Under the pieces are notes generated by a model. The model did no database searches. It saw nothing but the letters and a program-made list of their open reading frames with translations, and was not told the DNA's origin. Shown piece after piece: positions 2,147 to 18,795 of a stretch of DNA of 39,680 bases. The stretch lies in contig DYTF01000006.1 in NCBI GenBank assembly GCA_020726105.1, forward strand, positions 1 through 39,680, in the 5' to 3' direction. The first letter of the stretch is position 1. Every line of letters starts with the position of its first letter. The stretch comes from Sulfurovum sp. (GTDB taxonomy: Bacteria > Campylobacterota > Campylobacteria > Campylobacterales > Sulfurovaceae). The position numbers were made by a program, and so were the translations under genes.

Positions 2147-4399
2147 ATGAGTGAGCATAAAGATTTTTTACGGACGATTGTTGAGGAGGACTTGGCTTCG
2201 GGTAAGTATGAAGAGGTGGTGACACGATTTCCGCCTGAGCCCAATGGTTTTCCGCACATCGGACACGCTAAGTCTATCTGCATCAATTTTGGTATAGCCA
2301 AAGCGTACGGCGGTCACTGTAACCTGCGTATGGATGACACCAACCCCACAACCGAAGACACCAAATATGTTGAAGCACTTAAAGATGCCGTAGAGTGGCT
2401 TGGCTTTAAGTGGGAAGATGGGGTGCGTTATACCTCTGACTATTTTCCAAAACTCTATGACTATGCCGTGGAGCTCATCAAGATGGGTGAAGCGTATGTG
2501 GACAGCCTAAGTGAAGAAGAGATACGCGAGTACCGTGGCACAGTGACCCAAGCAGGACGACGCAGCAAGTATGCACAGCGTTCCGTGGAAGAAAACCTAG
2601 CACTTTTTGAGCAAATGAAAAATGGTGAGTGCAAAGAAGGTGAGCATGTCTTAAGAGCAAAGATAGACATGGGTGCTGCCAATATGAAACTAAGAGACCC
2701 ACTTTTGTACCGCATCAGACATGCGCATCATTATAGAGCAGGTGATGTGTGGCATGTTTACCCGATGTATGATTTTGCGCATTGTCTCTCTGACTACATT
2801 GAGGGGATTACACACTCCATTTGCACGCTGGAGTTTGAAAATAACCGCGCTATTTATGATTGGGTTTTAGATACGCTTGGACTCACTGCGCACCGCCCGT
2901 ATCAACATGAGTTTGCACGGCTGGGCATCAACTACACCGTGATGAGTAAAAGATTGCTTTTGGAGCTGGTAAAAAGTGGCAAGGTGAGTGGTTGGGATGA
3001 CCCTCGTCTTCCAACCATCGCTGGGTACAGAAGAAGAGGCTACACGCCTGAGTCTATCATCCACTTTTGTGACAGCATTGGTGTAGCCAAAGCAAACTCC
3101 ACGGTTGATGTGGCACAGCTTGAATTTGCCATCAGAGATGACTTAAACACCAAAGTGCCGCGTGTGATGTGTGTGCTTGACCCGCTTAAAGTTACTCTCA
3201 TTAACTACGAGGGCAGTGAAGTGCTTGATGCCTCGTATTATCCTGAAGATGTGCCAAAAGAGGGAAGCAGAGCTTTGCCTTTTTCAAAAGAGCTTTACAT
3301 CGAGCGTGAGGACTTTAGTCTCAATCCTCCTAAAGACTATAACCGTCTGACACTTGAACAACCTGTAAGACTTAGACATGCCTACATCATCACCTGTAAA
3401 GAAGTAGTGAAAGATGCTGAGGGTAACATCGTAGAGATAAAAGCAGAGTACCATGCAGACTCAAAAAGTGGTGTTGATACGAGTGGCATCAAAGTAAAGA
3501 GTGCCATCCAGTGGGTAGATGCGGCTACGGCAAAAATCGTCGAAGTAAGACTCTACGACAGACTCTTTCAAGATGAAGCACCGCAGAGTTTGGAAGATGT
3601 CAATCCTGATTCGCTACACATCATCAAAAATGCCCTCATCGAACCTGCTGTGATCTTAGATAGACCTGATGAGCGCTTTCAGTTTGAAAGACAAGGGTAT
3701 TTTTATGCCGATCCGGTGGACTATACAGACCAAAACCCTGTGTTTAACAAGATAGTAGGACTGAAAGACTCATGGAGTAAGAAGAAAAAAATAGATACCC
3801 CTATACTAAAGCCTCAAGTTAAAAATGAGCAGATAGAGGGTGAGGTGTCAGCGATGAGTGTAGCAGAACAAGCACTATTTGACAGATACACGGGTGAACT
3901 TCAGCTCAACCCTGAAGTAGCCAATACCTTAGCACGCGACGCAAAACTCTCCTCTTTTTATGAAACGGCTTTAGGTGAATGTGACAGTCCAATAGGTTTA
4001 GCCAATATCATAGCCAATGAGGTAGCGAGGGAACTCAAAGAGAAAGAAGTGCGAGAGCTCAAGTTTACACCTATGCAGATAGCACAACTTGTGAAGATGA
4101 TTGAAGATGAGACTATCTCGACCAAGATTGCCAAACAGGTTTTTGAAGAGATGGTACTTTGTGGTGAAGACCCTACGCACATCGTTGAAGCAAAAGGGCT
4201 AGTGCAGATAAGTGACCCCGCCTTCATTTTACCTATCATTGATGAGGTGATGGCTAAAAATCCTGACAATGTGGAGAAATACAGAGCAGGTAACACAAAA
4301 CTTTTTGGTTTTTTTGTAGGACAGGTGCTCAAAGCCACAGAAGGCAAAGCAAATCCGCAGGTTGTCAATGCACTGATTGAAGAAAAGCTAAAACATTAA
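2147..4399 (+). CDS. glnS: Glutaminyl-tRNA synthetase with C-terminal YqeY/GatB-like domain
   Basis: This 750-residue cytosolic class I synthetase attaches Gln directly to tRNA-Gln. It shows PPEPNGFPHIGH with HIGH at 37-40, DDTNP, the GlnRS-specific YPMYDFAHCLSD and GITHSICTLEF blocks, and VMSKR at 265-269 as the KMSKS loop. After the beta-barrel anticodon-binding region (to about 555) come about 185 extra residues ending GFFVGQVLKATEGKANPQV, the YqeY/GatB tail domain that binds tRNA in GatB and is also fused to Deinococcus GlnRS. The much-studied Helicobacter and Campylobacter use GatCAB instead of GlnRS, so its presence here probably reflects acquisition. The stop overlaps the convergent exonuclease gene. 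A TAAAAT -10 candidate is at 2109-2114. A strong Shine-Dalgarno is not obvious. Confidence 0.97.
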   Translation: MSEHKDFLRTIVEEDLASGKYEEVVTRFPPEPNGFPHIGHAKSICINFGIAKAYGGHCNLRMDDTNPTTEDTKYVEALKDAVEWLGFKWEDGVRYTSDYFPKLYDYAVELIKMGEAYVDSLSEEEIREYRGTVTQAGRRSKYAQRSVEENLALFEQMKNGECKEGEHVLRAKIDMGAANMKLRDPLLYRIRHAHHYRAGDVWHVYPMYDFAHCLSDYIEGITHSICTLEFENNRAIYDWVLDTLGLTAHRPYQHEFARLGINYTVMSKRLLLELVKSGKVSGWDDPRLPTIAGYRRRGYTPESIIHFCDSIGVAKANSTVDVAQLEFAIRDDLNTKVPRVMCVLDPLKVTLINYEGSEVLDASYYPEDVPKEGSRALPFSKELYIEREDFSLNPPKDYNRLTLEQPVRLRHAYIITCKEVVKDAEGNIVEIKAEYHADSKSGVDTSGIKVKSAIQWVDAATAKIVEVRLYDRLFQDEAPQSLEDVNPDSLHIIKNALIEPAVILDRPDERFQFERQGYFYADPVDYTDQNPVFNKIVGLKDSWSKKKKIDTPILKPQVKNEQIEGEVSAMSVAEQALFDRYTGELQLNPEVANTLARDAKLSSFYETALGECDSPIGLANIIANEVARELKEKEVRELKFTPMQIAQLVKMIEDETISTKIAKQVFEEMVLCGEDPTHIVEAKGLVQISDPAFILPIIDEVMAKNPDNVEKYRAGNTKLFGFFVGQVLKATEGKANPQVVNALIEEKLKH

Positions 4400-11335: not shown

Positions 11336-13771
11336 CTAGTCTTTTAAAAATCCATACGCATAGACTTTGGGTTTGATGGTGTCGGCTAAGATGGCGAGTT
11401 TGTTTCGTAGTAGCCCGATGCGTGCCATGTAAGTCGCATCGTCGCTTTTGGCGTTCATCCTGCCTTTATCATTTCTGCCTTGGAAGTGTTCTCGTATGTC
11501 GTAGAGGCTAGCGTTGACATTGACCCCTGTTTGGCTGTGGTAGTACTTCCAAAGCGCACGACCTGCGTCAAATACCGCTGTGGCATCTTCTGAAAAGACT
11601 CTTTTTAAGGCTTGGTTTTGAGGTGCCTCAAAGAGGGTGGCGTCGTTTTCTATGCTGAGTTTACCGTTCATGAAGTCAGTCATAAAATGGCTCTCAAACC
11701 TGTTCTTAGCATCGACCTCTTGCTCGCTAAAGGGTATCCAGTGGTTGATGCCAAAACTTGATGAAATATTATTGCTATTGTCGAACAAGCAAAAAGTTAA
11801 ACAATCACTTTGAAATTCTGTATCATATTTCCAATCATTATTTGGATAAGTAAACTGGTCTCTATCGTTTAACCAAGTAGCCTGTATGCAATGACGAACA
11901 GAAATATATACTGAAATTTCTATAATATTTTTATCTGTTACCCACGTGCCTCTTGGGTGCGGTAATTGATTTTTGTCATTAATAATAAATATAAAATTTG
12001 CGTTTTGGAAATCATTGCCTTTTGCAGACATAAAACCAATATTGATTTCATTGACTTTATTTCTTGTTGTAATTATCCAATCATTTATTGATTTGAAAAT
12101 TGAGGTATTAAGAAATCGTTTATTACCAATAAAATCACCTTTAGAGTTATATATATCACTTTTTATTTCTTTAAAATCTTCTTTGATATCATTATTCCAT
12201 ATGAAAAATCCAATAGGAAATTTCCCCTTAACATTATCGAAAGAGTCTGCTGGAACAACAAATAAATTTTCAAGCTTTGCTCGAAAAAAACTTCTAAAAT
12301 CGGAGAAGTTTGGTGCTTGCAGAATTTTCAAAGTTGAAAATTCTGCAAGCACGGTATTGGGGATTTCAGCGTTAATTCTTGTAAGAAATTGAACAAAAAG
12401 TTCACGTCCGCCAATTCCAATTTTGCTTTTATATTTTTCATAAACTTTTGTAGTAACAGCAACATCTGTTTTGTTTGTTCCTGTATTTGATACAGTGCCT
12501 TTACTTGCCGCCTCAGCATACGGCGGGTTAATATAAATCACCAACTTCTTCCTTTTTGCTTCGTCGCCGATGATGTCTTGCAGGCTTTGGGGTAGTTTGC
12601 TGAAGTCATCATTTAAGAAGTCAAACTGAAAGACATGGGCTTTGAGTAAGTTAGCCCCATGGTCTATGCGTTCGTGCATGACATTGATGTCTGCTTGGTC
12701 TAGGGTACTGGCGTAGATGTTGTACTTGTTGGTAAGTCCTGCTAAAAGGTTGCCCGTGCCAGCGGCACAGTCCCAAATGTAGTACTCATCCTGCCAGTCT
12801 TCACCCAGATAATCCCTGAGGTACTTCTGTGAAAGCTCTACCCAGATACGAGGGGTAAAAAACGCACCTTTTCGTTCTCTGATGTCTTGGGGAACGAGCA
12901 AATCCCTTCGTTCTATGATGTAGTCTTGAAAGGCTGCTATAGGCGGGCGTTTGTAGAGTTTCCAAAACTGCAAATAGGCGTTTTTTTCGCGGATGTTGAT
13001 GGTGGCATCAAACATTTGATTGAGGTTTTCCTTGGCTATGGTGTAACCTTGATTTTGAAAAACCACAAAAAGATTGTCTCTGATGCTTAAGTCATCTTCT
13101 ATATCTTGCGTGTCTTTGTCGTCTACAAATATATCTGCCAAATAAAAATCGCTATCAAAGATATTGGCTTTTTTGAGTTCATCCCAGTTGACATCGATGA
13201 TGGGTTTTACACTCTCTATCCAGCGCAGATAGATGGGGATGAAGTTGTTTTTGTCTATCCTGATTTTACTTTTTGTCGTGGCATTGGCTACATTGTTTTT
13301 GATGAATGTTTGGAGTTCTTTTTCGTCTTTTTCGTAGTCAAAGACATAGGTATTTCGCTTGAGTGTACTTTCGATGCGTTCTTTTATGAGTTGAAACTCT
13401 TTTGTGTCGTGCTTGCTTGGGGTGACATTCCAGTTGAAGTCATTGAGATAAAAAATATCTTGGATATTGACATAGTCCACAAAGGCAATCTTCTTGAAGT
13501 CAAATGCACCCAAAAAGGCAGGGGGCAAAGTTTTGTCAAAAGTACGCGCTTTGCCGATGGTAAGGATGAGTTGCACAAACATAGCAGCGATGCCAAAATC
13601 ACCCGTTTTAGCCTCTGCCCACAAAAGTGGTGTTCGTCCAAACAGATTGTCTTGTTTTGGAAAAACCGTAAAGTCGATATTGCCTAAAATTTCGGTCGTA
13701 TCAAAAGACTTAAACCAGTCTGCACCTACTTTGTTTTTGAGTTCTTCTTCTCTGATGTTTTTGTATTTCAT
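11336..13771 (-). CDS. Type IIG restriction-modification enzyme (nuclease + N6-adenine methylase + specificity in one chain)
   Basis: This 811-residue protein has an N-terminal PD-(D/E)XK nuclease (D33 in NIDFTVFP, then WAEAK with E53 and K55). A helical connector follows, then an amino-methyltransferase with motif I DCAAGTGNL (about 334-342) and motif IV NPPY (415-418). The C-terminal half should hold the target-recognition domain. This order is that of type IIG enzymes (Eco57I-like), which cut and methylate from one polypeptide. The region from about 11750 to 12540, residues about 410-674, is visibly more AT-rich than both ends, consistent with exchange of the specificity region. A TATAAT lies upstream. 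No separate methylase or R gene is adjacent. The recognition site cannot be predicted. Confidence 0.87.
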   Translation of the reverse strand: MKYKNIREEELKNKVGADWFKSFDTTEILGNIDFTVFPKQDNLFGRTPLLWAEAKTGDFGIAAMFVQLILTIGKARTFDKTLPPAFLGAFDFKKIAFVDYVNIQDIFYLNDFNWNVTPSKHDTKEFQLIKERIESTLKRNTYVFDYEKDEKELQTFIKNNVANATTKSKIRIDKNNFIPIYLRWIESVKPIIDVNWDELKKANIFDSDFYLADIFVDDKDTQDIEDDLSIRDNLFVVFQNQGYTIAKENLNQMFDATINIREKNAYLQFWKLYKRPPIAAFQDYIIERRDLLVPQDIRERKGAFFTPRIWVELSQKYLRDYLGEDWQDEYYIWDCAAGTGNLLAGLTNKYNIYASTLDQADINVMHERIDHGANLLKAHVFQFDFLNDDFSKLPQSLQDIIGDEAKRKKLVIYINPPYAEAASKGTVSNTGTNKTDVAVTTKVYEKYKSKIGIGGRELFVQFLTRINAEIPNTVLAEFSTLKILQAPNFSDFRSFFRAKLENLFVVPADSFDNVKGKFPIGFFIWNNDIKEDFKEIKSDIYNSKGDFIGNKRFLNTSIFKSINDWIITTRNKVNEINIGFMSAKGNDFQNANFIFIINDKNQLPHPRGTWVTDKNIIEISVYISVRHCIQATWLNDRDQFTYPNNDWKYDTEFQSDCLTFCLFDNSNNISSSFGINHWIPFSEQEVDAKNRFESHFMTDFMNGKLSIENDATLFEAPQNQALKRVFSEDATAVFDAGRALWKYYHSQTGVNVNASLYDIREHFQGRNDKGRMNAKSDDATYMARIGLLRNKLAILADTIKPKVYAYGFLKD

Positions 13772-14407: not shown

Positions 14408-15136
14408 ATGGCTCTAAAAGAAATCTACTACAAAGAACAGTGCTTTAACCTCTCTTATGAGATACTTAACCCCACGCAAGAAACAGTCTTGCTTGTTTTG
14501 CACGGATGGGGAAGCAACAAAGAGATCATGAAACAGGCATTTGCTAAAACACTTCCTAGTTACAGACACCTCTATCTTGATTTGCCAGGATTTGGACACT
14601 CAAACAATGAGATGGTCTTAACCACGCAAGACTACGCGGCCATCGTGAAGCTTTTTTTACAGGCATTGGGTGTCGTGCCAACCATCGCCATGGGACACTC
14701 CTTTGGCGGTAAGGTCTCTACACTGCTGGCAGCACCGTGTTTGGTGCTCTTGTCTTCTTCTGGGGTACGAGTCAAAAAACCTTTGTCAGTGAAGTTCAAG
14801 ATAGCTCTTGTCAAACTCCTCAAGCCGTTAGGTTTGGCAAAGCTGCGCGCGTGGTTTGTAGCACCCGATGCCAAAGGGATGAGCCACGCGATGTACGAGA
14901 CTTTTAAAAATGTAGTCAATGAACACTTTGAAGACAACTTTAGCGCATCTAAGAGCAAGGCGCTGTGTTTTTGGGGTAAAGCAGATACCGCGACACCGCT
15001 TTTTACGGGTGAAAAGATAGCAGAGTTGATTGGGGACAGTCACTTTTATGCGCTTGAGGGGGATCACTTTTTCTTCTTGCAACACACGGCATTTATAGAA
15101 CACACCATCTTAGAACACTGTAAAGGAACTCACTAA
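14408..15136 (+). CDS. Alpha/beta-fold hydrolase next to murF
   Basis: This 242-residue protein has the alpha/beta hydrolase layout: LVLHGWGSN (oxyanion loop), LDLPGFGHS, nucleophile elbow GHSFGG with S98, probable acid D193 in WGKADTATP, and H220 in GDHFFF. It has no signal peptide. The stop TAA overlaps the ATG of murF (TAATG), indicating translational coupling. As recalled, Campylobacter jejuni also has a hydrolase gene beside murF, so an envelope-related substrate is plausible but unproven. A TAAAAT -10 at 14374-14379 fits. The Shine-Dalgarno is weak. Confidence 0.88.
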   Translation: MALKEIYYKEQCFNLSYEILNPTQETVLLVLHGWGSNKEIMKQAFAKTLPSYRHLYLDLPGFGHSNNEMVLTTQDYAAIVKLFLQALGVVPTIAMGHSFGGKVSTLLAAPCLVLLSSSGVRVKKPLSVKFKIALVKLLKPLGLAKLRAWFVAPDAKGMSHAMYETFKNVVNEHFEDNFSASKSKALCFWGKADTATPLFTGEKIAELIGDSHFYALEGDHFFFLQHTAFIEHTILEHCKGTH

Positions 15137-16593
15137 TGTTTTTTGCACTCAACACACTTTTTTATGCGCTTTTTGTCTTGGCTATGGGCTACTACTTCAT
15201 CACCAACTTGCAATGGTACTCTTACAAGCTAAACCGCGCACTCTTTCATCACACCAAAACATGGTGGCATGCAGTTTACTTTTTACTGCCCTATGGTCTG
15301 TATGCGGTGGCTGTGAAGACAGGTGAGTTTAGTTTTGTGGTGGTCATGGTCTATCTTGTGATGCTCTACTTTTGGCACAAAGGACTGGATAAACCTCTGG
15401 TATTTACAGGTAGAGTGAAACGCTTTTTTGCCGCTTTGGTACTCTTTGCACTTTTTGTTTTTGTGGTGTTTCACCATGCCATGCTCATCGTGCCGTTGTT
15501 TTTGGCGTATGTGGTCTCGATGCTCATCGAAAAGATGCTTTTTCACGGGTTTAAACGCAAAGCACAGCAGAAGATAGAAGCGATGGAAGAACTCATCGTA
15601 GTAGGCATCACGGCTAGCTACGGTAAGACCAGCATCAAAAACTACACCCAACATCTGCTGAGTAGCAAGTACAAAACCTACGCTACCCCACGCTCGGTCA
15701 ATACCTTGGGTGGCATCATGAAAGACATCAATGAGGATTTGCCCTCAGATACGCAGGTGTATGTGGTAGAGATGGGTGCAAGAGGTGAGGGTGACATCGC
15801 GGAGATCAGCACCTTTGTCAATCCACACTTCGTAGTAGTGGGCAAGATAGGCCCTGCACACATTGAGTACTTTAAGACCATCGAAAACATCCGTAACACC
15901 AAGATGGAGATACTCAAAACCGCTAGACTTCAAAAAGCATGGGTGCATGAGAGTGCCAGAGTCAAGCCTGAAGCCATGGTGCATACCTTTGGAAGTTTAG
16001 AGCATCTGGACATACGCAGCAAAGATACGCCACCGCAGTTTGTCATAGAAAATGTAGAAGCAACGCTTGAGGCGACTTGTTTTGTGCTAGATGGTGTGCG
16101 CTACTGTGCTAGCATCTTAGGGGCGTTTAACGCGATGAACCTCGCGGCAGCCGTACTGGTTGCCAAAGAACTTGGACTAAGCGAAGAAGAGATACAACAA
16201 GGACTCTCTACTCTCAAACCAGTTGCCCACCGACTGCAACGCATCGATGCAGGTGGCAAGGTGATACTCGATGACAGTTTTAACGGTAACATCGACGGGA
16301 TGATGGCTTCTTTTGAGTTGGCAAGCACCTACCAAGGACGCAAGGTCATCATCACACCAGGGCTAGTTGAGGTAGATGACACACTCAATGTACAAGTAGC
16401 CAAAAGAGCCAATGAAGTCTTTGATGTAGTAGTGGTCACAGGAGAGTTAAACTACGCCATTTTTAAAGCACATATTGATGCCGATAAACTGGTCAAACTT
16501 GCCACCAAAGCACAGATGCAAGAGATGCTCATAGAACAAACCCGCACAGGTGACCTCATACTCTTCGCCAACGATGCACCGAGTTTTGTGTAG
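15136..16593 (+). CDS. murF: UDP-N-acetylmuramoyl-tripeptide--D-alanyl-D-alanine ligase with N-terminal membrane domain
   Basis: This 485-residue peptidoglycan precursor ligase adds D-Ala-D-Ala to UDP-MurNAc-tripeptide. The first 130 residues hold several membrane spans (about 1-24, 45-60, 65-80, 97-130), an extension characteristic of epsilonproteobacterial MurF. The Mur ligase core follows: ATP loop GITASYGKTS (157-166), TLGGIMKDIN, VVEMGARGEGDIAEI, VVGKIGPAHIEYF, LGAFNAMNLAAAV and LDDSFNGNIDGM. The membrane anchor would place the last cytosolic stem-peptide step at the inner face of the membrane. It is coupled to the hydrolase upstream and convergent with the nucleotidyltransferase gene. 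Confidence 0.93.
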   Translation: MFFALNTLFYALFVLAMGYYFITNLQWYSYKLNRALFHHTKTWWHAVYFLLPYGLYAVAVKTGEFSFVVVMVYLVMLYFWHKGLDKPLVFTGRVKRFFAALVLFALFVFVVFHHAMLIVPLFLAYVVSMLIEKMLFHGFKRKAQQKIEAMEELIVVGITASYGKTSIKNYTQHLLSSKYKTYATPRSVNTLGGIMKDINEDLPSDTQVYVVEMGARGEGDIAEISTFVNPHFVVVGKIGPAHIEYFKTIENIRNTKMEILKTARLQKAWVHESARVKPEAMVHTFGSLEHLDIRSKDTPPQFVIENVEATLEATCFVLDGVRYCASILGAFNAMNLAAAVLVAKELGLSEEEIQQGLSTLKPVAHRLQRIDAGGKVILDDSFNGNIDGMMASFELASTYQGRKVIITPGLVEVDDTLNVQVAKRANEVFDVVVVTGELNYAIFKAHIDADKLVKLATKAQMQEMLIEQTRTGDLILFANDAPSFV

Positions 16594-16621: not shown

Positions 16622-17086
16622 TCAAGCCTTTTTATTTAATGTTTGAATTCTCATCAACTCCAACACATCGTATTTGTCTTTAGGTCTGTTGGTGGCAGTT
16701 TTGTTTTTGATGAGGTCATGTAGGCTTATAAAATGAATTGTTTCACCAAATAGACTATTATTGGTTTTGTTCTTCCATGCTTGCGAAAATTCAACACCAT
16801 CAATATCGGTTAGTACATCGATACGCATAGGCTCTAAACCTATTTGTAGTACCATATTTTCCGTGTTGAGTTCATCAACTGTAATCTCATAAGGAATAGG
16901 GAACTCATTAAAAGCTTTTTGTATATTTTTTGCATTATCTACAGACTTTTCAATCCATAGGTCTATATCAAGAGTGTGTCTACTGTAACCATAGTTACCC
17001 ATAGCATACGCACCAACCACTAGATACTTGACATTGTGTTTGTTGAAGAGTTGTAGCATATCCTTATAATCATCAAAATAATCCAT
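16622..17086 (-). CDS. Nucleotidyltransferase-fold protein (AbiEii/DUF6036-like)
   Basis: This 154-residue protein contains VGAYAMGNYGYSRHTLDIDLWI (given as positions 24-45): the glycine-rich loop then D40-x-D42, the metal-binding pair of the minimal nucleotidyltransferase fold. It continues with MRIDVLTDIDG and SLHDLIKNKTA...RPKDKYDV, as in AbiEii- and DUF6036-type proteins of accessory loci. It begins four bases after a 66-residue gene. The sequence is more AT-rich than murF beside it. A toxin or defence role is possible from the family; activity is inferred. Confidence 0.75.
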   Translation of the reverse strand: MDYFDDYKDMLQLFNKHNVKYLVVGAYAMGNYGYSRHTLDIDLWIEKSVDNAKNIQKAFNEFPIPYEITVDELNTENMVLQIGLEPMRIDVLTDIDGVEFSQAWKNKTNNSLFGETIHFISLHDLIKNKTATNRPKDKYDVLELMRIQTLNKKA

Positions 17087-17090
17087 CTAT

Positions 17091-17291
17091 TTAAACTTTT
17101 GTGGTTCTGATTGATATTTTAGTTTTATCTAATCGTGGTGGGTATTTACCGTGTATTTCAAAATAGTGTTGTGCTGTCATTGCAGTCATCATCTTAAATA
17201 GCTCATCACCCGTTAATCCAAAGATAAAACTATGGTGCGCCTCATCATGGATGGACATTTTGTTTACAGTAATTACCCTATCTTTTTTCAT
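17091..17291 (-). CDS. Small protein cotranscribed with the nucleotidyltransferase
   Basis: This 66-residue protein (MKKDRVITVNKMSIHD start, SFIFGLTGDELFKMM middle, basic C-terminus KTKISIRTTKV) is not recognised. The gap to the nucleotidyltransferase start is four bases, so the two form a transcription unit, the size pattern of an antitoxin-toxin pair. A minus-strand TATAAT lies at 17329-17324. No DNA-binding fold is obvious, so regulator function cannot be claimed. Confidence 0.6.
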   Translation of the reverse strand: MKKDRVITVNKMSIHDEAHHSFIFGLTGDELFKMMTAMTAQHYFEIHGKYPPRLDKTKISIRTTKV

Positions 17292-17399: not shown

Positions 17400-17939
17400 T
17401 TAGAGAGATTCTTTGCTTTCATTGCTCTTTGTGTCATTGTCATCTGAGCCAAAGTCAAAATGAGTATCCAAATCAACATCAAACTCATACCACGCTTTGG
17501 GCTTTTCTTCACCACCCATTTTTTTGAAAAAGAGTTGATGGTGTTGGCCCTTAAGCAAGATGCCATCTACGCCGTTACTGCTGGCACGCACTACGCTAAA
17601 ACCTTCTGCTAGTGTTTCATGGAGTGCATGGCTTGCTAGAGCCTGCTTTTGGTTTCTGCACCCCATTTTCGTGGCGATGAGCATTGAGGACATGTTGTTT
17701 TCAGAGCTTGCATTGAGTCTACCCGAGATTTTGTTGCACCCGTCAAATCCACTGATATGCATTTTAGTAGAGTCAAATTCTAAAATGGTGCGAGATTTTC
17801 GCGTCCCATTACCGTCTACACTGCGTAGATGCCAGTTTCCGTCAAGCTCTTTGAGCTTTACACTGTTTTCCTCTGCCAAAAGTGCGCTACTGGTGATGAT
17901 GGTGAGGAGACAAAGAACAGCCATTTTTTGGTAAAACAT
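17400..17939 (-). CDS. Exported META-domain (HslJ-like) protein
   Basis: This 179-residue protein has a Sec signal peptide (MFYQKMAVLCLLTIITSSAL, cleavage near LLA-EEN). Its META domain has LDGNWHLRSVDG at its start, MHISGFDGCNKISGRLN (the conserved G-x-x-GCN-x-x-G core) and MLIATKMGCRNQKQALA. META domains occur in HslJ, a novobiocin-resistance-associated outer-membrane lipoprotein, and in secreted proteins of unknown mechanism. The final 40 residues are strongly acidic and repetitive (SDDNDTKSNESKESL). AAGGAAG lies upstream of the ATG. It is divergent from the lysozyme-like gene across a shared promoter. Confidence 0.85.
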   Translation of the reverse strand: MFYQKMAVLCLLTIITSSALLAEENSVKLKELDGNWHLRSVDGNGTRKSRTILEFDSTKMHISGFDGCNKISGRLNASSENNMSSMLIATKMGCRNQKQALASHALHETLAEGFSVVRASSNGVDGILLKGQHHQLFFKKMGGEEKPKAWYEFDVDLDTHFDFGSDDNDTKSNESKESL

Positions 17940-17977: not shown

Positions 17978-18000
17978 AAAACTTGTATTATGGAGTCTCT

Positions 18001-18795
18001 ATGCGTTTATTTTTTTTCTTTATTTTTTCTTTTTCAGTACTTTTTGCTACACCACTGACTTTGAGTGACAAGCAAGCAGCGTTTATAGCACAAAAGGTAT
18101 GGCAAAATGAAGGCGCAGGGCTGGACAAGTATCTGGTGCACTGGAACGAAGGTGAAGACTTTGCATCGGTGGGCATCGGGCATTTTATTTGGTTTCCGAA
18201 GGGACATACGGAACGATTTAGGGAGGTGTTTCCTTTGGTGTTGGCATTTATGGAGGAAAAGTCTATTGAGATGCCCCGATGGCTCAACGCTCAAACACCG
18301 TTTCCTTGGCACACCAAAGTGGAATTTTTTGCTGCTAAAAATGCACAAAACAAGCAATATAGGGAGTTATTTGCATTTTTAAAGCGTACTATGTCCACTC
18401 AAGCTGCTTATATGGCAAAACGCCTTAATGATGCCTTGCCACAAATGCTCAGCACTCTTAAAGATATACAACAAAAAGAACTGATTGAAAAGCGTTTTTA
18501 TGAAGTGATGCACCATGCGAATGGCACCATCAGCGAACAAGGTGTGTATGTACTTTTGGACTATACTAACTTCAAGGGCGAGGGTACACTCAAGAGTGAA
18601 CGCTACAAGGGGCAAGGGTGGGGTTTGTTGCAAGTGCTTGAACACATGAACCCGCAAGAACCAAACAAACAAAAAGCTTTTGCGCTCTCAGCCAAAGCGA
18701 TGTTAAGCAGACGCATCAAAAACTCCCCACCTGCTAGAGGTGAAGAGCGTTGGCGCGCAGGGTGGAACAAGCGGCTAGAGACCTATTGGAAATAA
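18001..18795 (+). CDS. Secreted protein of a conserved family with a lysozyme-like signature
   Basis: This 264-residue protein has a Sec signal peptide (cleavage near residue 16-17). The mature N-terminus has WQNEGAGLDKYLVHWNEGED then FASVGIGHF. E37-G and G58-I-G-H61 recall the E...G-x-G-H pattern of GH24/T4-type lysozymes. Other conserved-looking blocks are LLDYTNFKGEGT, ERYKGQGWGLLQVLEHM and NSPPARGEERW. I recall the family as widespread in Proteobacteria and uncharacterised. A cell-wall hydrolase role is inference. GGAG precedes ATG 18001, which is a better start than TTG 17983. It is divergently paired with a META-domain exported protein, so both may act in the periplasm. Confidence 0.75.
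   Translation: MRLFFFFIFSFSVLFATPLTLSDKQAAFIAQKVWQNEGAGLDKYLVHWNEGEDFASVGIGHFIWFPKGHTERFREVFPLVLAFMEEKSIEMPRWLNAQTPFPWHTKVEFFAAKNAQNKQYRELFAFLKRTMSTQAAYMAKRLNDALPQMLSTLKDIQQKELIEKRFYEVMHHANGTISEQGVYVLLDYTNFKGEGTLKSERYKGQGWGLLQVLEHMNPQEPNKQKAFALSAKAMLSRRIKNSPPARGEERWRAGWNKRLETYWK

Follow-up and report, generated by a model that had tools for sequence, protein, structure and literature searches.

An exported, unnamed bacterial protein family with a predicted lysozyme-superfamily fold and a candidate role in peptidoglycan turnover

Introduction

The open reading frame at positions 18001-18795 (+ strand) of a 39,680-nucleotide stretch of Sulfurovum sp. DNA (contig DYTF01000006.1, hereafter the window) raises the question of whether its product is a lysozyme and, if so, of which kind. 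A preliminary description had noticed a Glu at position 37 and a GIGH element further on, likened both to the catalytic region of GH24 lysozymes, and suggested an undescribed peptidoglycan-active enzyme to be compared with GH24 and GH104. In the lysozyme superfamily the catalytic Glu lies on a core helix and is followed by a β-hairpin that lines the cleft; in its inverting members the helix Glu is the acid, a carboxylate on the hairpin is the base, and a Ser or Thr positions the water (PMC2976769).

Results

Homologue searches place the 264-aa product in a family of exported proteins with a predicted lysozyme fold. Translation starts at the ATG at 18001, with a ribosome-binding-site-like GGAG (17992-17995, +) five bases upstream. 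The TTG at 17983, taken as the start in a mechanical ORF call, is unnecessary. The N-terminus, MRLFFFFIFSFSVLFA-TPL followed by TLS, is hydrophobic and signal-peptide-like, and residues 1-16 (18001-18048, +) have low pLDDT in the structural model described below. An export-type hydrophobic N-terminus is found in 166 of 176 relatives, most of the other ten being truncated by contig ends, fused to NagZ or borderline in score, and a lipobox is present in some members. A cytoplasmic location for some gammaproteobacterial members, implied by automatic start calls, was rejected because earlier in-frame starts yield signal peptides. The protein is confirmed as an exported member of a discrete, single-domain family.

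The family is sharp-edged, since match scores of hundreds of bits give way to scores near zero. Of 25 sampled genomes of the window's genus, 20 have a relative, as do 7 of 200 drawn from its class, and a pattern-and-tblastn scan of species genomes returned at least 561 relatives among at least 577 candidate stretches. They span at least eight phylum-level groups, with hosts among the matches listed that include Sulfurovum, Nitratifractor, gammaproteobacterial sulfur oxidisers, Verrucomicrobiota, Chlamydiota, Omnitrophota, Elusimicrobiota, Melainabacteria and Kapaibacteria. Profile searches of genomes from the phyla of one gammaproteobacterial, one verrucomicrobial and one chlamydial host found the family in 50 of 299, 24 of 145 and 18 of 79, respectively. 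One record titled as a Chlamydia trachomatis MAG (L083) contains the family gene together with a GH3 gene; its divergence suggests an environmental chlamydia and a misleading title. The gene is usually single-copy per genome, and the family tree sorts mostly by phylum, with a few misplacements. Parabeggiatoa has tandem paralogues (L074:3903-5711 and L085:506-2312).

The preliminary description had taken the family to be unannotated, and so it proved: neither the protein nor any of 45 aligned relatives matched a Pfam, NCBIfam or PHROG model, PDB sequence searches with the same sequences gave no match, and a literature search for the family motifs found nothing. We found no relative in viral contigs, phage records or plasmids, and on these grounds rejected an origin as a phage endolysin or a phage- or plasmid-borne cargo gene. 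A defence role was also set aside, PADLOC giving no match for the protein. The family is widespread in bacteria, unnamed and chromosomal.

Conservation was counted in 177 relatives from several phyla, scoring only the rows that cover a position. E37 (codon 18109-18111, +) is present in 174 of 174, and E52 (18154-18156, +), S56 (18166-18168, +), G58 and H61 in 175 of 175 each. E37 and the GIGH element had been placed correctly and are family-wide rather than chance features, and the conservation of E37 and H61, on which the preliminary description had made its reading depend, is complete. Also invariant in all covering rows are N36, L45, W48, F54, W64 and W103 and, in the second half of the protein, G181, D187, Y188, F191, G195, Y202, W207, G208, W255, R258 and Y262; E200 has a single exception. 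A few rows differ at N49 and, as judged by eye, at G51 and G60, whereas E52, S56 and H61 never do. The resulting signature, E52-x-F-x-S56-x-G58-I-G-H61-F-I-W64, includes a Ser at what would be the water-positioning place, and its G58-I-G-H61 core is encoded at 18172-18183 (+). As for the stretches that had been called family-specific, DYxNFKGxG (residues 187-195; 18559-18585, +) and GWG (206-208), the latter within the longer motif ERYxGxGWGL (200-209; 18598-18627, +), are invariant or almost so. "NSPPARGE" is kept only in part (P243, R246), and G38, the Gly of the reported "E37-G", is variable and replaced by C, T, A or I. R246 opens a conserved C-terminal helix motif, RxExRWxxGWxxRxxTY (246-262; 18736-18786, +).

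A first AlphaFold model, built from 8 sequences, had a pLDDT of 85 and a poorly predicted hairpin region, and a fold search with it gave no significant match and no lysozyme. It was replaced by a model from 45 sequences (pLDDT 94.0, pTM 0.87), which is confident except for the signal peptide. This model has a helix at 23-38 that carries E37 at its end, strands at 46-47, 55-57 and 62-64, and then further helices; S56-x-GIGH sits on the β-hairpin (strands 55-57 and 62-64) that follows the first helix. The predicted structure therefore shows the superfamily layout of a Glu on a core helix and then a β-hairpin. A Foldseek search of the PDB (350,542 chains) returned GH46 chitosanases at ranks 1-4, each aligned over about 260 columns (7xh0, probability 1.00; 1qgi, 0.96; 5hwa, 0.96; 4ily, 0.85), with E-values of 0.02-0.2 and TM-scores of about 0.4. 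The fifth match was the lytic transglycosylase MltC, which was weak (probability 0.09), followed by a weakly matched phage endolysin; matches in the BFVD viral library included a phage glycoside hydrolase and endolysins. Since no E-value was below 0.001 and TM-scores were about 0.4, these matches indicate likeness at the level of the superfamily and not membership of a family. The prediction that the fold would be lysozyme-related is borne out in the model, and we assign the protein, as a structural prediction, to the lysozyme superfamily fold class.

The narrower GH24/GH104 label did not hold. PF00959 (GH24) matched neither the protein nor any of the 45 members, and PF01374 (GH46) matched none of the 45. 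We also compared profiles by hhalign with GH24 (15 sequences) and GH46 alignments and 40 decoy families, repeating the comparison with enlarged alignments and in global mode; the GH24 alignment finds T4 lysozyme at 1e-36 and the GH46 alignment finds chitosanases, which validates both. Against GH24 the family scored P 0.021-0.029, with decoys equally high, and against GH46 P 0.5-0.9, again not above decoys. Sequence homology to either family was accordingly rejected at the level of profile-profile comparison. The GH24 alignment did pair E37 with the GH24 Glu and S56-x-GIGH with T-I-G-Y-G-H, the register expected, at a score within the decoy range. The second carboxylate is spaced differently, E52 lying four residues before the Ser and the GH24 Asp six before the Thr. 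The resemblance to GH24 stands locally, as a helix Glu followed by S/T-x-G-x-G-H on a hairpin, but not as membership. On its predicted fold, the family is a separate one within the lysozyme superfamily, with no sequence link to GH24 or GH46. The window's genome does encode a genuine phage-type GH24 lysozyme elsewhere (L121, G000:C44:2373-2696), which is separate from the family.

Of 51 distinct loci in Sulfurovum-type Campylobacterota, 38 have murF upstream of the family gene and in the same orientation; several of the others lack murF only because their contigs end. The two genes are usually separated by a divergent gene for an exported META/HslJ-domain protein, which is a neighbour in most Sulfurovum loci; in L023, L050, L051, L054, L055 and L056 murF overlaps or abuts the family gene. 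The window contains this conserved cluster as an EstV-family α/β hydrolase gene (14408-15136, +), murF (15136-16593, +; the genome's best MurF match) and the META/HslJ gene (17400-17939, -). Here murF ends about 1.4 kb upstream of the family gene, a wider gap that results from the insertion, between murF and the META gene (16622-17291), of a DUF6036 nucleotidyltransferase gene with weak AbiEii matches and a 66-aa ORF, possibly a toxin-antitoxin-type pair. Farther away, the window encodes an 811-aa ORF (11336-13771, -) that matched nothing in Pfam, NCBIfam or PADLOC and a glutaminyl-tRNA synthetase (class I E/Q) with a C-terminally fused GatB/Yqey domain (2147-4399).

In Chlamydiota, a GH3 enzyme is encoded directly upstream of the family gene or fused to it in 7 of 21 distinct loci: it is adjacent in L079, L083, L193, L195 and L199, and fused, identified as Glyco_hydro_3, in L201 (1492-3705) and L207 (1-2220). 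In L201 and L079 the GH3 part scores above the NCBIfam cutoff for β-N-acetylhexosaminidase. Long N-terminal extensions in Verrucomicrobiota (L176-L188) are likely stop-to-stop artefacts, and only the chlamydial GH3 fusions stand. In two Verrucomicrobiota (L064, L166) a YkuD L,D-transpeptidase gene lies downstream. GH3 enzymes occur in 22 of 25 genomes of the genus; that of the window's own genome has a signal-like N-terminus and is encoded away from the family gene. In Gammaproteobacteria and most Verrucomicrobiota the neighbours are not peptidoglycan genes, and the murF linkage may be no more than conserved gene order.

Discussion

We consider it probable that these proteins form a new family within the lysozyme superfamily and that its members are exported endo-β-1,4-glycan hydrolases with peptidoglycan as the likeliest substrate; catalysis and substrate are both deduced from conservation, predicted fold and gene context. 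E37, E52 and S56 are invariant and follow one another in the order E...E/D...S/T-x-G, and so fit the acid/base/water scheme of the superfamily. We infer a mechanism like that of an inverting lysozyme or chitosanase, with a Glu37/Glu52/Ser56 centre in which E37 is the proposed general acid, E52 the proposed general base (the counterpart of the GH46 Asp, T4 lysozyme D20 and DslA E154) and S56, from its place before GxGH, the proposed water-positioning residue (counterpart of T4 lysozyme T26). Once the protein is exported, a glycan chain would occupy a cleft bounded by the β-hairpin and the helical lobe. E37, with which the first helix ends, would donate a proton to the glycosidic oxygen. E52 and S56, both on the hairpin, would hold a water molecule and activate it for attack on the sugar from the other side. 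H61, W48, W64, D187/Y188, E200 and W207 may shape the sugar-binding cleft.

The suggestion of an undescribed peptidoglycan-active enzyme is probably right, being supported by the context of murF, the NagZ fusion and the L,D-transpeptidase. Soluble fragments are the substrates of NagZ, an exo-acting enzyme (PMC6572805), and an exported endo-acting partner would therefore be a natural role for the family. The soluble fragments that this partner releases would be trimmed by the exported NagZ-type GH3, which in Chlamydiota is fused to it or encoded next to it and in Sulfurovum has its gene elsewhere in the genome. The full proposal is of a new glycoside hydrolase family that uses an inverting Glu/Glu/Ser centre and acts as an endo-muramidase (or endo-glucosaminidase) encoded on the chromosome. 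It would partner exported NagZ from Campylobacterota to Chlamydiota and Verrucomicrobiota and be co-expressed with murF, and so with peptidoglycan synthesis, in Sulfurovum. We advance this proposal tentatively, at somewhat under an even chance.

Other readings have to be weighed against an inverting hydrolase. The protein could be a lytic transglycosylase-like enzyme in which E37 alone catalyses and 1,6-anhydroMurNAc products are released. MltC is its fifth structural match, the lipobox of some members and the periplasmic location recall the Mlt enzymes, and NagZ accepts anhydro-muropeptides (PMC6572805). However, the MltC match is the weak one noted above, and lytic transglycosylases lack a second catalytic residue (PMC7511926), whereas the family has an invariant second carboxylate and Ser on the hairpin, as inverting hydrolases do; GH23 enzymes are marked by one catalytic Glu with no further carboxylate on the hairpin, a pattern that the invariant E52 and S56 do not fit. 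We judge this reading unlikely. A truly GH24, T4-type lysozyme that has diverged strongly is very improbable: the hhalign register speaks for it, but the score lies inside the decoy range, PF00959 matches 0 of 45 members, GH46 and not GH24 tops the fold search, and the protein, at 264 aa, has extra helices between the hairpin and the C-terminal helices.

Two further readings seem to us about equally improbable, and slightly more so than a transglycosylase. One would have the protein secreted for nutrition, as a chitosanase- or chitinase-like enzyme whose substrates are GlcN/GlcNAc polymers and not peptidoglycan. The GH46 folds point to this reading, as does the Glu-Glu pair found in one chitosanase group and in DslA, both of which act on deacetylated substrates (PMC7511926). 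Against it, Sulfurovum-type bacteria, of a genus described as sulfur-oxidising chemolithoautotrophs (PMC8759385), and Chlamydiota are unlikely polymer feeders, the genes are linked to murF and L,D-transpeptidase, and no polysaccharide deacetylase (PF01522) was found in the window's 84%-complete genome. The other is a member of the fold that is non-catalytic or acts differently, as an envelope glycan-binding scaffold or regulator. Inactive lysozyme-fold proteins such as α-lactalbumin exist (PMC7511926), and sequence likeness to known enzymes is undetectable here; but the catalytic-type Glu, Glu and Ser are strictly invariant across several phyla, the pseudo-enzymes named in that work have the first Glu replaced, and the fusion to an exo-glycosidase also argues for an active enzyme.

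Hundreds of genomes (at least 561 matching stretches) carry this protein without a family model. If it is the cell-wall hydrolase proposed here, it would fill a gap in envelope turnover in Sulfurovum, environmental chlamydiae and Verrucomicrobiota, and the chlamydial NagZ fusion would gain a testable endo-plus-exo mechanism. The fusions L201 and L207 would be useful as two-enzyme chimeras. The lysozyme superfamily would likewise gain a family with a Glu-Glu centre; it counts against this reading that, to our knowledge, Glu as general base is unusual among characterised lysozymes.

Among known systems, the GH46 chitosanases are similar in size and give the best fold match. Their order of first-helix E20, D37 and then T/S42-Y-G44 on the hairpin is similar to that of the family, whose second carboxylate, however, is Glu and not Asp, and which has the GxGHFIW, DYxNFKGxG and GWG motifs that the GH46 set lacks, an envelope gene context, and no sequence or profile likeness to it. 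GH24 lysozymes likewise have a Glu where the first helix ends and T/S-x-G-x-G-H on a hairpin, but the family is bacterial and chromosomal, without phage relatives in the collections searched. DslA, the Bdellovibrio lysozyme, has a Glu-Glu-Ser centre (E143, E154, S166; PMC7511926) and shares with the family this active-site make-up, export and a peptidoglycan context; it differs in most resembling GH23/MltF, and it is not among the family's fold matches. DslA acts on deacetylated wall; no PF01522 deacetylase was found in the window's own genome, which is 84% complete. Finally, the GH3 β-N-acetylhexosaminidase NagZ, an exo-acting enzyme with an unrelated TIM barrel fold, would be a partner of the family and not a relative.
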